21,691 nt of DNA. It comes from a virus. Position numbers and translations under genes: made by a program. Position 1 is the first letter of the stretch, and the number at the start of each line of letters is the position of its first letter. Below are positions 1 through 14,835 of the stretch, in pieces. The stretch is taken from positions 1-21,691 of the IMG/VR virus record IMGVR_UViG_3300024339_001108. One strand, written 5' to 3'. The notes beneath the pieces are model-generated. The model was not told the origin of the DNA and searched no databases. It saw only the letters and a list, made by a program, of their open reading frames with translations.

Positions 1-1024
1 AAAAGTCATGCTCTTTGTATCCTTCAAGGAACTCGTCCCACATTTGCTGAGCGTTTTTAGGATACAACTCGCATTTGAGATCTTCAAAAGCTGGTAGTGT
101 TAGGTTGTCTTTCTTACCAAGCCAGCCAAGTTTCTTATATAACTCTCTTGCTTGCCATTTATCGTTGCTCGGGTAATGAGAATCTGCCGTTGAGATCAAC
201 GGAATGCCAGTTAGTTTATGATGTTCTATGAGATAGTCATTAACAACGTGCTGCTTGTTTAGCTTGTTAAACTGCAGTTCTAATTTGAAGTTTTCAATAC
301 CTACTGCGTCTGTAAATCTGTCTGTAAGGTTTAAAAGATCTTTTTGGATTTCATCACGTGACTTATCATGTGCAACGCCGCGGAGTATTCTATTGCTAAA
401 AATCCCGCCTAAACATGCAGTATTTACGTGTAAGCCTTCGCCATGTTCTTTAAGCATTTTAAAGTCAATGCGAGGGTATCTATAGAAGCCGTCTTTGTAT
501 GACTTCTTTACAAGAGTGAATAGGTTATTAAGGCCTTTTCTATTTCTTGCTGTGACGACTAAGTGATAGCGACGTTTCCATTCGTCTTTAAGGATATCAA
601 TCTTTTTGGATTCATCTTCGTCCTCTATGACAAGACCACCGCTTTCATCATCAGCATCAATGATGATTTTTTCTTTACTTTTCCTTTCAGCAGCAGCAGC
701 AGTTTTTGCATCTTTAATTGCTTGCTTATGAGCTGCGTAGTCATTAGTCCATTGATCTAGTGAGGGAACAAAATAGAATTCGACCCCGTAGATTTGTCTA
801 AACTTTTTCCCAGCCTTTTGCATTTTGACAGCGTGCGAGCGTGCATGAGCGAGGCCGTTACCATTGCCGTGGTCTGTTAGTGCCCAAGCATCCATGCCTT
901 GTGATTCAGAAAGCACAAAGTCTATATGATCTGATGGGTAACCTAATCCATCAAAAGTGCTAAAAGTTGAGTGAGAATGAAGAGAAACAAACCTGTCTGG
1001 TGGAGTTATTAAATCAATAGACAA
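1..1024 (-). CDS. dnaE: DNA polymerase III alpha subunit, N-terminal part (cut by window edge)
   Basis: Probable replicative polymerase of the phage. About 341 N-terminal residues are visible and the rest lies beyond base 1. They form the PHP domain of bacterial C-family polymerases: LHSHSTFSTFDG (residues 15-26), ALTDHGN (48-54), GVEFYF near 80, HLVVTARN, then DGFYRYPRIDF, ACLGG and ADSHYP. The PHP metal-ligand positions (His, His, Asp, His, Glu, His, Cys, Asp, His) all appear present, so the domain may be an active nuclease or proofreader rather than degenerate as in E. coli. A Lys/Asp/Glu-rich insertion lies around residues 100-135. The start is a TTG at 1024: an in-frame stop lies two codons upstream, no ATG/GTG fits, and AAGAAAGG sits 8 bases before it. 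It is divergent from the rightward genes. The family call is firm; full length and activity are unseen. Confidence 0.92.
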   Translation of the reverse strand, partial: MSIDLITPPDRFVSLHSHSTFSTFDGLGYPSDHIDFVLSESQGMDAWALTDHGNGNGLAHARSHAVKMQKAGKKFRQIYGVEFYFVPSLDQWTNDYAAHKQAIKDAKTAAAAERKSKEKIIIDADDESGGLVIEDEDESKKIDILKDEWKRRYHLVVTARNRKGLNNLFTLVKKSYKDGFYRYPRIDFKMLKEHGEGLHVNTACLGGIFSNRILRGVAHDKSRDEIQKDLLNLTDRFTDAVGIENFKLELQFNKLNKQHVVNDYLIEHHKLTGIPLISTADSHYPSNDKWQARELYKKLGWLGKKDNLTLPAFEDLKCELYPKNAQQMWDEFLEGYKEHDF

Positions 1025-1050
1025 ATTTTATACCTTTCTTGTTTTTATTT

Positions 1051-1079
1051 ATTATAACAACATTATATTTATATTTACA
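1051..1079 (-). promoter_or_regulatory. Predicted leftward promoter of dnaE
   Basis: On the minus strand TGTAAA (1079-1074) is followed after 17 bases by a perfect TATAAT (1056-1051), about 27 bases before the TTG start. The same two boxes with 16 bases between them occur upstream of both thyX-type genes and clpP, which makes a chance match less likely. The box is preceded by GCG, giving GCGTGTAAAT. Confidence 0.6.
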
Positions 1080-1098
1080 CGCAAAAGATATAATAAGG
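1065..1098 (+). promoter_or_regulatory. Leader motif of rightward gene 1 (possible late promoter plus ribosome binding site)
   Basis: ATATTTATATTTACACGCA (from 1065), continuing as an A-run, aligns with ATATTTAATTTACGCGAAAA (2589-2608) before the second rightward gene, at 42 and 37 bases from the respective ATG. An AAGG Shine-Dalgarno core follows in both. The shared block suggests a common promoter or leader for the two plus-strand genes, different from the leftward promoter type. It overlaps the -35-like box of dnaE on the other strand. Confidence 0.35.
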
Positions 1099-1106
1099 TT
1101 TAATTA

Positions 1107-2567
1107 ATGAGTAAGATGAATAGAAAAGAATTTAACGAGTTGTTAACTGAATGGAAACAAAACTTTGTTAATGAAGCTAATAGAGTTATCATGTCAGAAC
1201 CTGAAGATTTTATAGGAATAGATGGCGAAAAAGGATCACAAGCTTCGCGTGTTCAAAGTAGTCTTATGACTAAAGAAATAGAAGATATGACACATTTAAG
1301 TGTAGAAGATACATTAAAAAAACTAATAAATATTGCAGATGAAAATGTATTTATTCATTTTTTAACTAAATCAGATAAGCTAGATAGAAGCAAAGTTTCT
1401 AGTAATGAAATAAAAACACTTTCAGTAAACCCTAAAGTTAATTGGGGTGATCAGCAAGGAATATTTAGTTACAAGCTTAACAAACAAGGATTGGTTAATT
1501 TAATACAAAGAGGAAAACCTGCAAGTGGAGATTATGGAGTTGCAGCTGATTATTTTCAAGTATTTAAAATTGATGATGCAAGAACTATAAAAATATTTGA
1601 AATAGATGATCATGTAAATGTCACATTGCCAATTTCTCTTTATCCGATTACAACTAGAAGTTTGCAAAATAAATTAAAACATATAATAAAAGAATCTTTT
1701 TACTTGATATCAAAAAATAAAATAGAAAATGAGAATGAGTTTATTTTAAAATATTCAACATTAAAAAGTAAAATAATAAAACTATATTTACAAGCGATAG
1801 AGTCTAAAGATTTTAATAGCTTTATTCCAACAATAGCAAAACATATAGAATTAGGTGTAAAAAAAGAAGTATTTGATCATGAAAAGAAAAAGAAATATAA
1901 TTATTACTTAAAAAATAATGAAGCTAAATTTCTTTTTATTATTAACTATTATGTAGGCTTGATTTCTTATGTTGTAGGTTATATAAACAACACGACATCA
2001 GCTCAATATGGCAGTTTACTTTGGCATATGTTAGGTGTAGAAAACATAGATGATCAAGGAACTGGTTTTATTCATGGAAATGAATTGTCGCAAGCTGTAT
2101 CTTTTGATTTTTCAGGTGACTCATTAGAGTCAATTGGAACATTTAAAAATTATTTCAAATACCCACCTATAGGTCAATACTATAACATGTTTGTTGATAT
2201 TATTAATCATGAAAATGTAAATTGGGATTTTAACATAGTTACTAAAAAGTTTGATGAAATATCTGATCCTAGAGATTGGGATTTAAAACATTTAAAAAAA
2301 GCTTTAAAATTAAATAAACCGGTTAGACCTACTAACTGGGATAAAGATAACGGTAGCTGGTATTTCTGGACTGATTCTATGGAAGGCGCATTATGGGCTT
2401 TTTCTGAGCACGAAGATAAAGATACTGGTCTTTTATTATTAAAATATGTAATAGATAATTGTCCAGTTCTTAAAGATACTGCAACTCATTACTATAACGA
2501 ACTTAAAAAAGATGATAGAGAATCTGGTTATTGGAAAGATAAAGAAGACTTATATTATAAGGGTTAA
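1107..2567 (+). CDS. Unknown phage protein with N-terminal tag, possible packaged virion protein
   Basis: 486 residues, no recognised enzyme family. The first 23 residues (MSKMNRKEFNELLTEWKQNF then VNE) nearly match the start of the next gene's product, while the remainders are unrelated, so this looks like a detachable targeting tag, for instance a capsid-targeting sequence. After a linker, residues 81-130 contain FIHFLTKSDKL and LSVNPKVNW followed by GIFSYKL. Further on (roughly 305-335) lies GTGFIHGNELSQAVSFDF. From memory, blocks of the kind NPk..GIysY and GxGxIHxNExxQAV recur in uncharacterised proteins of large phages; this is unverified. No signal peptide or membrane segment is obvious. 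The gene is markedly AT-rich. ATG at 1107 is preceded by TAAGG. It is one of only two rightward genes here, divergent from dnaE, with 58 bases to its partner. Confidence 0.85.
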   Translation: MSKMNRKEFNELLTEWKQNFVNEANRVIMSEPEDFIGIDGEKGSQASRVQSSLMTKEIEDMTHLSVEDTLKKLINIADENVFIHFLTKSDKLDRSKVSSNEIKTLSVNPKVNWGDQQGIFSYKLNKQGLVNLIQRGKPASGDYGVAADYFQVFKIDDARTIKIFEIDDHVNVTLPISLYPITTRSLQNKLKHIIKESFYLISKNKIENENEFILKYSTLKSKIIKLYLQAIESKDFNSFIPTIAKHIELGVKKEVFDHEKKKKYNYYLKNNEAKFLFIINYYVGLISYVVGYINNTTSAQYGSLLWHMLGVENIDDQGTGFIHGNELSQAVSFDFSGDSLESIGTFKNYFKYPPIGQYYNMFVDIINHENVNWDFNIVTKKFDEISDPRDWDLKHLKKALKLNKPVRPTNWDKDNGSWYFWTDSMEGALWAFSEHEDKDTGLLLLKYVIDNCPVLKDTATHYYNELKKDDRESGYWKDKEDLYYKG

Positions 2568-2588
2568 AAAGATTACATAATATAGTTA

Positions 2589-2618
2589 ATATTTAATTTA
2601 CGCGAAAAAAATAAAAGG
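2589..2618 (+). promoter_or_regulatory. Leader motif of rightward gene 2 (possible late promoter plus ribosome binding site)
   Basis: ATATTTAATTTACGCGAAAA at 2589-2608 is followed by AAAAGG before the ATG at 2626. It matches the leader of the first rightward gene apart from a two-base gap (TTTACACGC versus TTTACGCG). The T/A-rich ATATTTA part could serve as a -10-like late element, with a start site near the GCG; that reading is inference. Confidence 0.35.
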
Positions 2619-2625
2619 ATTATAA

Positions 2626-3543
2626 ATGAGTAAACTAAATAGAAAAGAATTTAAAGAGTTATTAAATGAATGGCATCAAAATTTTTTAAATGAAAAAGGT
2701 GAGTATTTAAAATATAACAAAGATAAAGTAAATCAAACTGGGTATTTAGCTACTTTTCCTCATTCTCAATTAGGAAAAATTGAAAAATATGTTATAAGTT
2801 ATATTAAAAATAATAATATAACAGAGCTCATGGATGTTACAAATCAAGATTACATTGAAGGAGGAATTGTTTTTCCTAAGACAAGTAAAGTTTTAAACAT
2901 GTTTAAAAACTACTTTGTTGAGTCTGGTGATGTAAATAAAGCAAAAGTAATGGAAAATATTTTAAAAAGCAATGATGACGAATGTGTTATTATACATTCA
3001 GGTAGTGGAGACTTTACTAAAGATTTTAAGTCTCAGTCAGAAGCTGAAATCTATCATTGGACATTGCACGATATGGAACATAATTTACTATCAGGCATAT
3101 CAGTACAGCCATTTTATTTTTGTAATAGCGTTTTAAAAAGACCTAGCTTTAAAAATGCAGTTAAAGAAAAAAATATAAGAAGTAATAATATTACAACAAC
3201 TACATTTTTAAATTCAGGAACAATGAGTAATAGCTTTTTAAGAGGAAATGAAGCTTATTTGGTTGAAAAATTTTTTAAAGCTATTAATTTTACTGAGACT
3301 GCTGAATTTGGTGATCAACATGCATCAGTTATGGCTTTTTGTTATAGTAAAATGTCTGAACTTGATAAAGATAAGTTGAAAAATATAAAAATTGATGAAA
3401 TAGAAAATTTAGATTCAAGTTTTACTAACGAAGAAAAAACATGGCTTTTAAACTTTTTTAGAAGTGAAGTATATAATATAACTCAAAATGCATTTAATGA
3501 ATTAAAAAATGTTTTTAAAGATTGCGTTATATTATCATATTAA
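2626..3543 (+). CDS. Unknown phage protein with the same N-terminal tag and a His/Asp cluster
   Basis: 305 residues. The start (MSKLNRKEFKELLNEWHQNF, then LNE) is 17 of 23 identical to the previous gene's product; the rest is different. Mid-protein, EIYHWTLHDMEHNLLSG (residues 141-157) has a His-x3-His-Asp-x2-His spacing with nearby Glu residues, which could bind a metal, and a further Asp-Gln-His lies at 230-232. I cannot assign a family; an HD-type hydrolase or metallopeptidase would be a guess. No membrane segment or signal peptide is seen. The gene is AT-rich like its partner, starts with ATG after AAAAGG, and ends one base before the stop codon of the converging minus-strand gene, so any terminator must lie inside coding sequence. 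Shared tag and leader suggest co-expression and perhaps co-packaging with the upstream gene. Confidence 0.85.
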   Translation: MSKLNRKEFKELLNEWHQNFLNEKGEYLKYNKDKVNQTGYLATFPHSQLGKIEKYVISYIKNNNITELMDVTNQDYIEGGIVFPKTSKVLNMFKNYFVESGDVNKAKVMENILKSNDDECVIIHSGSGDFTKDFKSQSEAEIYHWTLHDMEHNLLSGISVQPFYFCNSVLKRPSFKNAVKEKNIRSNNITTTTFLNSGTMSNSFLRGNEAYLVEKFFKAINFTETAEFGDQHASVMAFCYSKMSELDKDKLKNIKIDEIENLDSSFTNEEKTWLLNFFRSEVYNITQNAFNELKNVFKDCVILSY

Positions 3544-3544
3544 A

Positions 3545-3769
3545 TTAAGCTTTTTCTACCCAAAGGCCTTCTTGATTTTCAAGATCCATTGTCTCGCGAG
3601 AAGTACCGTTTAAATAAATTATTAAACCTTTTGTAAAGTAGTGATCTTGTATAATTTCTACAACTAAACAATTGTTTTTTATTTTTTTTCCGTAATAAAA
3701 AATATCAATCATGTCACCTTTGTTTAGTTGAGAAACAAATCTTATTTCTTCTTTATTATTGTCCGACAT
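3545..3769 (-). CDS. Small unknown protein
   Basis: 74 residues with no family I recognise. It is rich in charged residues and beta-prone stretches (RFVSQLNKGDMIDIFYYGKK, then alternating hydrophobic strands), which could form a small beta-barrel or SH3-like fold; this is only a shape guess. The ATG at 3769 overlaps the last 14 bases of the von Willebrand A gene and has no clear Shine-Dalgarno site, so translation may be coupled to that gene. It is the last gene of the leftward trio and converges on the rightward pair. Confidence 0.65.
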   Translation of the reverse strand: MSDNNKEEIRFVSQLNKGDMIDIFYYGKKIKNNCLVVEIIQDHYFTKGLIIYLNGTSRETMDLENQEGLWVEKA

Positions 3770-4976
3770 TTAATTTAGGCTTTCCCCATCTTAAAGTAAT
3801 TTGTGCATTGTTGTTTAACATGTTTGTACATATATTAAAGGGTTCTGTATCATAAAACTTTAAAATCTTATATAAATTATCATGTAAATAATCAATACCT
3901 TCTTCTAAGACTTGCGTATTGTTAAAAACATTTAGATTACCTTCAGCAATGACTGGACCAATTCTACACATAATTTCTGCAATAATAGCATTAAAAGCCG
4001 CAGAAACTTGGTTTGCATTGACAGTAAATGAAAACTCGTTAGGTGACGTATTTAAAGTATTACCACTTATTGAAGTTAAAGCATTTACATCTGCATTGTC
4101 TACACCTAATGTATATACTGTAATACACGGACTTGTATTAGTAGAAAAAATACAACTGTTGTCGTTAATATTCATGACATTGCTTTGCACAAAATTTTGT
4201 GAGGCGCTAATGCCTTCATTAGGCGATCCATCTGATATTAGTAGCACGTAGTAAGCTTCGTAGTCTGTTTGTGCTATTTGTTGTATTGCCTTGTCAAGTG
4301 GTTTAATAAAACTTGTCCCGCCTGAAGGGTTATTGTTTGTAACCATTGAGTTTACAGATTGTTTGTGTTGCTGACCTTTCCCAATATCTGAGTAAACTAT
4401 TACGTCACTATTATACAAGATAACAGAGTAACTTAGATTAAAGTCAGAGTTAATAAATTGCCTGACTGAGTCTTTTAACTGGACAATTCTATTGCCACTC
4501 ATAGAGCCGCTGTAATCAAGCAACATTATTACTGCTGCATCTATTAAGTTAACGTCATGAACCTCTTCGGGAACAGTTATAGTTACAAACTTAGACGTGT
4601 TTCCTCTTCCCGGATTATAACTCGAAGTAATGCCAAAATTTCTTTCACAAACATTATTTAAGTCACATTCTAAACCTAAATCAACACATTGAAAGTTTGG
4701 ATTTACGTTTTCTGAAAGTGTGGTTGCACATTCGTTAAGAAATCTTACGTCACATATTTCATCTACTTTGTTTGTTTTTATTATAGAAGTCCCTAAGTCA
4801 ATGCTGCACGAATCAAGTATTTGTTTTTCTTCCATTACGTTTAAGGATATACGCCCGTATTGAATTACAATAAATGATATTAATGACATCACAGCTGCGA
4901 GCGATATTATTGTTAAAGCTGCAAACCCTTTATTTTTTTGAGCTAGCTTTGAGATATATAAGGTGTCTTGTTCCAT
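3756..4976 (-). CDS. Membrane-anchored von Willebrand A domain protein, TadG-like
   Basis: 406 residues. A single hydrophobic segment at about 17-40 (GFAALTIISLAAVMSLISF onward) follows a short polar N-terminus, as in TadE/TadG pilus-assembly proteins, and would place the rest outside the cytoplasm. Residues 55-115 contain seven cysteines, possibly disulfide-bonded. A von Willebrand A domain spans about 145-330 with an intact metal-ion-dependent adhesion site: Asp-x-Ser-x-Ser in LLDYSGSMSG (154, 156, 158), Thr221 in GGTSF and Asp249 in LISDGSPNEG. Such domains bind protein partners through a divalent metal. The ATG start has no strong Shine-Dalgarno site and lies 47 bases inside the upstream nuclease gene. 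In a phage this could be a surface, adsorption or host-modifying protein; it could also be recently acquired cargo. The domain call is firm, the role open. Confidence 0.88.
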   Translation of the reverse strand: MEQDTLYISKLAQKNKGFAALTIISLAAVMSLISFIVIQYGRISLNVMEEKQILDSCSIDLGTSIIKTNKVDEICDVRFLNECATTLSENVNPNFQCVDLGLECDLNNVCERNFGITSSYNPGRGNTSKFVTITVPEEVHDVNLIDAAVIMLLDYSGSMSGNRIVQLKDSVRQFINSDFNLSYSVILYNSDVIVYSDIGKGQQHKQSVNSMVTNNNPSGGTSFIKPLDKAIQQIAQTDYEAYYVLLISDGSPNEGISASQNFVQSNVMNINDNSCIFSTNTSPCITVYTLGVDNADVNALTSISGNTLNTSPNEFSFTVNANQVSAAFNAIIAEIMCRIGPVIAEGNLNVFNNTQVLEEGIDYLHDNLYKILKFYDTEPFNICTNMLNNNAQITLRWGKPKLNVGQ

Positions 4977-14229: not shown

Positions 14230-14835
14230 CTATTCTAGATCAAAAGATACAGTTACTTTTCCTTTTAAACTAGGCACTCTAAGATGTTGTGTGATATTGT
14301 GTTCTTTAGCTTCGACCGCATCTAGATACCAGTCAGCGTGTCCTTTATCATGAATTAAGTTTACAAAATAGTCATCAGGTTTACCACAATTCCTTGACAT
14401 CATAGTAAAAACTTTTTTATTCAATCGTTCAGCTTCTCTTGCATCAGACTTTAACTCTTCTACTTTTCCAAATGCCATCGACGAAACGTCATGTATCATC
14501 ATTGTCGCATCTTTATCCATAAATCTTAAACCATCTTCCCCAAAAGAAGACAATAGTGCTCCGCAAGACATAGCTTTTCCTTTTACTATTGTTGCAACCG
14601 GTATTTTTGAAGATTTAATTGATGATATCATTGACAATAAAGCGTAAGCTTGTCCCCCAAACGAATCAATAACTACAGGAACAACTTTTTGTCCTGTATT
14701 TTGTGCTGCACTCATTAAAGTAGCAAATTCATTAGCTGTTTCTTCATTAAACTCATTTACTGTAATGATGATTGGATCATGATGTAGCTCTATCTCTTTA
14801 ATTAGCGGTGAAATCTCAGTTAAAAAATTAATCAT
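14230..14835 (-). CDS. clpP: ClpP-like serine protease
   Basis: 201 residues, standard for ClpP without a propeptide. The catalytic triad is visible: Ser90 in GKAMSCGALL, His115 in TMMIHDVSS and Asp168 in GHADWYLDAVEAKEHNI. The glycine-rich VIDSFGGQAY strand fits the oxyanion-hole region of the fold. In phages such proteins either act with a Clp ATPase to degrade host or phage proteins or serve as head maturation proteases. No portal or capsid gene is nearby; neighbours are nrdJ and the amidase, so a host-takeover or regulatory role is as likely as head maturation. ATG at 14835 follows AAGGA and has its own predicted promoter. Confidence 0.88.
   Translation of the reverse strand: MINFLTEISPLIKEIELHHDPIIITVNEFNEETANEFATLMSAAQNTGQKVVPVVIDSFGGQAYALLSMISSIKSSKIPVATIVKGKAMSCGALLSSFGEDGLRFMDKDATMMIHDVSSMAFGKVEELKSDAREAERLNKKVFTMMSRNCGKPDDYFVNLIHDKGHADWYLDAVEAKEHNITQHLRVPSLKGKVTVSFDLE

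Follow-up and report, generated by a model that had tools for sequence, protein, structure and literature searches.

The window, i.e. the whole stretch of DNA analysed here (21,691 bases), is a fragment of an uncultured T4-like phage. It harbours two adjacent rightward genes, ORF1 (1107-2567, 486 aa) and ORF2 (2626-3543, 305 aa), whose products begin with MSKMNRKEFNELLTEWKQNFVNE and MSKLNRKEFKELLNEWHQNFLNE, respectively. The initial annotation had placed both proteins correctly and had claimed that they share a start of 23 residues with about 74% identity, after which similarity ends. The shared start is real and its identity slightly higher, as 18 of the 23 residues are identical (78%; pairwise match with E = 4.4e-7). 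The end of the similarity was confirmed as well: beyond residue 26 BLASTP gives no match between the two bodies, so that plain paralogy over the whole length of ORF1 and ORF2 is excluded. We refer to the shared start as the tag and to the remainder of each protein as its body. The locus consists of the following parts:

1021-1106, plus strand: upstream region of ORF1 with the ATTTACAC element; a similar block precedes tagged genes with different bodies on other contigs
1107-1175, plus strand: ORF1 tag, MSKMNRKEFNELLTEWKQNFVNE; LLTE and FVNE are candidate (L/I)-x-E-like protease sites
1176-2567, plus strand: ORF1 body (cargo A), with P-x-G-(I/N)-Y-x-Y-P-L-like and H-x-x-E-x-x-Q-x-V motifs (17-member alignment)
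2568-2625, plus strand: upstream region of ORF2, a diverged version of the ORF1 upstream block (ATTTACGCG)
2626-2694, plus strand: ORF2 tag, MSKLNRKEFKELLNEWHQNFLNE, holding LLNE and FLNE
2695-3543, plus strand: ORF2 body (cargo B), from a divergent family with an invariant H-D-x-x-H and a later D-x-x-x-S (family alignment)

In the structure model of ORF1 a helix is predicted at residues 6-28.

The same locus is present in the 133-kb IMG/VR contig IMGVR_UViG_3300024261_000007 (G001), where both tagged proteins are 100% identical. The head module of G001 is of the T4 type and includes a gp21-type protease (phrog_207, E 3e-51); the gp23 capsid protein is encoded as well (phrog_138, E 8e-71). By capsid and terminase the nearest isolated relatives are Flavobacterium phage immuto and Microcystis phage Mel-JY01, and by capsid Rhodothermus phage RM378 also belongs to the nearest ones, all of them being distant. 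The tag genes of the window lie in an island beside a DNA polymerase gene, outside the head operon. A conserved VWA-domain protein with a hydrophobic N-terminus, resembling a Tad-pilus-like secreted protein, is encoded at 3756-4976 (minus strand) and adjoins the tagged island in several contigs. Further along the window (14230-14835, minus strand) lies a gene for a ClpP-like protein, whose best PHROG match is a head maturation protease family and which is present although a gp21-type protease is encoded elsewhere in the phage.

By plain search neither body has a relative in Pfam, PHROGs, the PDB or isolated phages, and only scattered weak matches were obtained. The ORF1 body has fold matches to two proteins of the thermophile phage RM378, p059 (BFVD E 6e-8) and p039 (BFVD E 5e-6), which were identified by their lengths and a profile search. 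These relatives start close to the body and lack a comparable tag. They are annotated as hypothetical (NC_004735, 45740-47158 and 35631-37496), and the gene of the second begins next to that for the gp20 portal. The H..Y..E-like motifs of the ORF1 body had raised the idea of an Alt-like ADP-ribosyltransferase, which remains unsupported: the first histidine is not conserved in the alignment, no fold match at all was found in the PDB (with a model that is only moderately confident) and no ADP-ribosyltransferase domain in Pfam, and hhalign detects no similarity to T4 Alt. The model of ORF2 (pLDDT 62) is too weak for a meaningful fold search; its H-D-x-x-H motif and the later aspartate are suggestive of a putative metal site, but of nothing more.

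Further proteins with this start do exist. A tag profile led to eight related viral contigs, of which every ORF was then scanned, yielding 18 tagged ORFs (E <= 1.1e-5) across the 8 contigs. The tag always begins at residue 1 (once at residue 3) and is never internal. The tagged ORFs span at least six body families, including the ORF1 family, the divergent H-D-x-x-H family to which ORF2 belongs, a HEAT-like-repeat family (531, 651, 638 and 954 aa) and several singletons; contig G006 encodes six window-type tagged proteins and G002 four. Judged from the sequences alone, L13-x-E15 is kept in nearly all copies and E23 in most, the second site (E23) being absent from several members (IKK, NNK, NND) and E15 being replaced by D in one. 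Searching isolated phages with the tags by tblastn gave no match, as expected with so short a query, and no relative was found in the bacterial genome contigs searched for the tag. Beside the tagged genes of G002 (G002:C1:13333-17765) we noticed nine proteins in a row that look alike, with lengths of about 160-175 aa and the pattern TSxxT...GSxISYTP.

The tags of ORF1 and ORF2 differ with pS 0.44 and pN 0.12, and between body families (87 pairs) the mean values are 0.69 and 0.18. For the same 87 pairs the 24 codons behind the tag have a nucleotide identity of 0.33, which is about random for AT-rich DNA, and the similarity of the tags has a sharp boundary at residue 23. Because synonymous sites are nearly saturated and pN is low, the peptide is maintained for itself. 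This has to be weighed against the possibility that the shared start is merely a recombination anchor, a promoter-plus-start block kept alike by gene conversion, whose peptide has no function. Such an anchor would account for the upstream block, which is common to many tagged genes and reaches up to 95% identity between genes with different bodies, and for a 17-codon orphan copy of the tag ahead of one gene (G006 near 56555). It does not account for a peptide conserved with pN well below pS, the block is missing from three tagged genes (G007 19252, G002 11198, G006 68020), and wider variants described below retain the shape of the peptide in different genes and phages; we regard this explanation as very unlikely. 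The orphan copy itself (G006:C1 near 56511-56555, minus strand; MNKLSRREFKELLTEMN, then a stop) lies directly upstream of another tagged gene and is the kind of remnant expected from body exchange. A T4 late promoter (TATAAATA) was also sought upstream of tagged genes; these genomes are too AT-rich for this, and the motif failed to separate head genes from others.

A wider form of the tag is common in IMG/VR, where at least 120 stretches fit a DNA pattern encoding E-N-W-x-x-F-L-N-E. Among these, 93 matches were parsed, and in 80 the motif is N-terminal (at most 25 residues from the first ATG); the other 13 are largely frames whose first ATG is an unlikely start, together with three copies of one ATG-less chance match. 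This wider ENW tag is connected with the window tag by the bridge form MKRKEFKILLENWKKFLNE. Taken together, 99 tagged proteins (ENW-tagged ones among the matches listed plus the window-type ones) fall into about 52 body clusters. Recognisable bodies are an ART-PolyVal domain (PF18760, E 2e-12), a SAM lyase (PF23780, E 8e-12), a zeta-type kinase (PF06414, E 1e-13) and a cytidylyltransferase-like protein, and in G009 variant starts stand ahead of HAD_SAK and Nudix bodies. The small ADP-ribosyltransferase (ART-PolyVal) at L146:1052-1468 directly follows its ENW tag, an Alt-like arrangement. SAM-lyase-like proteins of the anti-restriction type are ENW-tagged in L155, L136, L140, L144, L161 and L113, a Pfam match having been obtained for L113; their homologues in isolated phages have other starts, most with a terminal glutamate. 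Lysine-rich small proteins with a T4-CTS-like start (LLEEFIKEALLDEAKKKKKKRK; CTS, capsid-targeting sequence) are encoded at G006:C1:51245-51861, G007:C1:18570-19228 and G008:C1:85762-86425 and by their appearance look like DNA-condensing internal proteins.

The strongest evidence for a capsid-targeting function, although it comes from sequence comparison only, is the exchange of tags on homologous bodies. In two contigs the ORF1 body follows MSKxNRKEFxELLTEWKQNF(V/I)(N/S)E and then continues with ANRVIM, while 15 of its relatives start differently (MILLEKYIKEFLKEA, MKIRLLKKYIKESLGREIM, MKIRLLKKYIKESLGRE and similar). These alternative starts resemble the T4 CTS, as in ipII (MKTYQEFIAE|A, T4 record). 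An ORF2-like body beginning with RVSQSL is preceded by LLLEWKQNFINE in G002, but by LIVENWRKFLNE in G005. The SAM-lyase body (SSLSR) follows MKTIIENWQRFLNE, a related ENWxxFLNE tag, in uncultured phages; in Microcystis phage Mel-JY01 it has the T4-like start MQFKQYILGE, in an Alishewanella phage MNFVQLLESEINALSE, and in Campylobacter phage CP20 another start, with NFNE at its end. On the RVSQSL and SAM-lyase bodies the start differs while the glutamate before the body is retained, and in the ORF1 family the exchange point adjoins a glutamate, give or take one or two residues. Proteases of the gp21 type require glutamate at the cleavage site: the prohead proteases of T4, phiKZ and SPN3US all cut after it (PMC5694885). 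In the T4 CTS, processing is governed by positions 8 and 10 (PMC9026906). Of the N-termini, 18.3% contain a [hydrophobic]xx[hydrophobic][LIVM]xE motif, compared with 1.7-7.6% of sequence windows further along. Window-type and ENW tags are interchangeable, on the ORF1 and SAM-lyase bodies respectively, with starts that are CTS-like by sequence but not proven CTSs.

The exchanges also decide whether the tagged proteins could be ordinary paralogues whose bodies have diverged past recognition, with the start as no more than their best-preserved portion. The ORF2 family would be in line with this, as identity among its bodies is only about 25%, against a nearly invariant tag. However, several known domains are represented among the tagged bodies (HEAT-like, HAD, Nudix, ART, SAM lyase), and homologous bodies carry unrelated starts. 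For the set as a whole the tag swaps refute common descent of the bodies, and we give it hardly any credence.

A link to the head is provided by gene order. In seven of the nine contigs which hold both an ENW tag and gp21, a tag-like gene lies beside gp21, either upstream (G010, G013, G014, G015, G016, G024) or directly downstream (G010, G014, G029). Several of these gp21-adjacent tags were classed by eye and fit only loosely (EHWNRYLQE, ENWNSFVDL, ENWRQFSEQE, AWREYLNE). The occurrence of gp21 as such, in 9 of 27 ENW contigs versus 4 of 26 random contigs of similar size, is not clearly elevated. It remains conceivable that the tag addresses a target other than the head interior, for instance by docking its protein onto an enzyme complex of the host or the phage, or by directing it to a membrane or the tail. 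No direct evidence puts tagged proteins in the head, and an amphipathic helix may have many partners; yet the tag-like genes beside gp21 in head operons and the alternation of the tag with T4-CTS-like starts having a terminal glutamate speak against such an address, which we consider very unlikely.

The initial annotation had read the shared start as a capsid-targeting sequence of packaged, possibly injected proteins. This reading is well supported, if indirectly, as all the checks it had proposed at the sequence level turned out in its favour; the support comes from the additional tagged proteins, the end of the similarity before the bodies, the gp21 and gp23 genes, the tag swaps and the tag-like genes beside gp21. 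Starting from what has been demonstrated, namely a shared tag under constraint, its modularity and swaps, the protease and capsid genes, and the tag-like genes in head operons of related contigs, we conclude with a probability of roughly 0.85 that these 23 residues serve a T4-type phage as a capsid-targeting propeptide; packaging, cleavage, core binding and injection are inferred. Counting against it are the missing sequence similarity to the T4 CTS, the loss of the second site in several members and of E15 in one, the position of the window's tag genes outside the head operon and a gp21 frequency not clearly above that of random contigs. The amphipathic helix (F9, L12, L13, W16, F20) would attach to the prohead core and pull the cargo in before DNA filling. 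Cleavage by the gp21-type protease behind glutamate (LLxE15 and/or glutamate 23) would then free the mature cargo inside the head, from where it may be injected alongside the DNA to exert its effect within the first minutes of an infection. The tag is a portable module, with recombination exchanging the bodies behind it and also replacing it by other tags of the same kind on one body.

The cargo list (ART-PolyVal, SAM lyase and zeta-type kinase, with Nudix and HAD_SAK behind variants) fits what is expected of injected effectors. ADP-ribosyltransferases and Nudix proteins have been argued to be packaged in myovirus heads (PMC9503650), and the internal proteins of T4 are a diverse counter-defence set with the CTS alone in common (PMC3012670; PMC9391042). 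We also think it likely, though by no means settled, that a tryptophan-centred code of the form hydrophobic-x-E-(N)-W-x-x-F-(L/I)-N-E, unrelated in sequence to that of T4, loads dozens of mutually unrelated effector and counter-defence proteins into the head across uncultured T4-like phages. Phage-injected proteins are known for few phages, and a recognisable portable tag would make them searchable, so that, if the reading holds, those of uncultured phages could be listed from sequence alone. The tag would point to proteins of the first counter-defence response (SAM lyase, ADP-ribosyltransferase, Nudix, kinase and many unknown bodies) and would provide a new way of bringing foreign proteins into the heads of T4-like phages besides T4 itself. 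The idea of a capsid-targeting sequence is known from T4; the sequence of the tag, its breadth and the cargo list are new, and no description of this tag was found in the open-access literature searched.

Among known systems, the ejection proteins of the giant phages SPN3US and phiKZ also have N-terminal propeptides which a prohead protease cuts after glutamate, and the diverged paralogues gp53 and gp54 have identical starts (PMC5694885). These propeptides, however, are mostly over 100 residues long, and their sharing by unrelated bodies is less extensive. The T4 gp23 propeptide (ELLNKWKPLLEGE) scores 14.5 on the tag matrix, in the top 0.5% of N-termini, compared with 14.0 for the wider ENW tag. 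Scaffold binding by mimicry of the gp23 propeptide is conceivable, though with weak support; it is no more than a suggestion, as tag-matrix scores are much lower for the capsid proteins of the closest relatives, and the likeness was noticed after the fact. The closest parallel is the T4 CTS of IPI, IPII, IPIII and Alt, which is cut by gp21. The tag differs from it in being 23 instead of about 10 residues long and tryptophan-centred, in having no detectable similarity to MKTYQEFIAE (tag-matrix score of -5.5 for the start of T4 ipII), and in occurring on up to six or seven genes per contig and on bodies of up to 954 aa. Both are short N-terminal peptides on unrelated bodies with diverse cargo, in T4 on highly diverse internal proteins (PMC9026906, PMC3012670), and both have a terminal glutamate and a hydrophobic P3 residue and come from genomes with a T4-type protease and capsid gene. 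The alt.-1/alt.-2 remnant adjoining T4 alt is similar in kind to the orphan tag of G006, and homologous bodies exchange T4-CTS-like starts and window or ENW tags.
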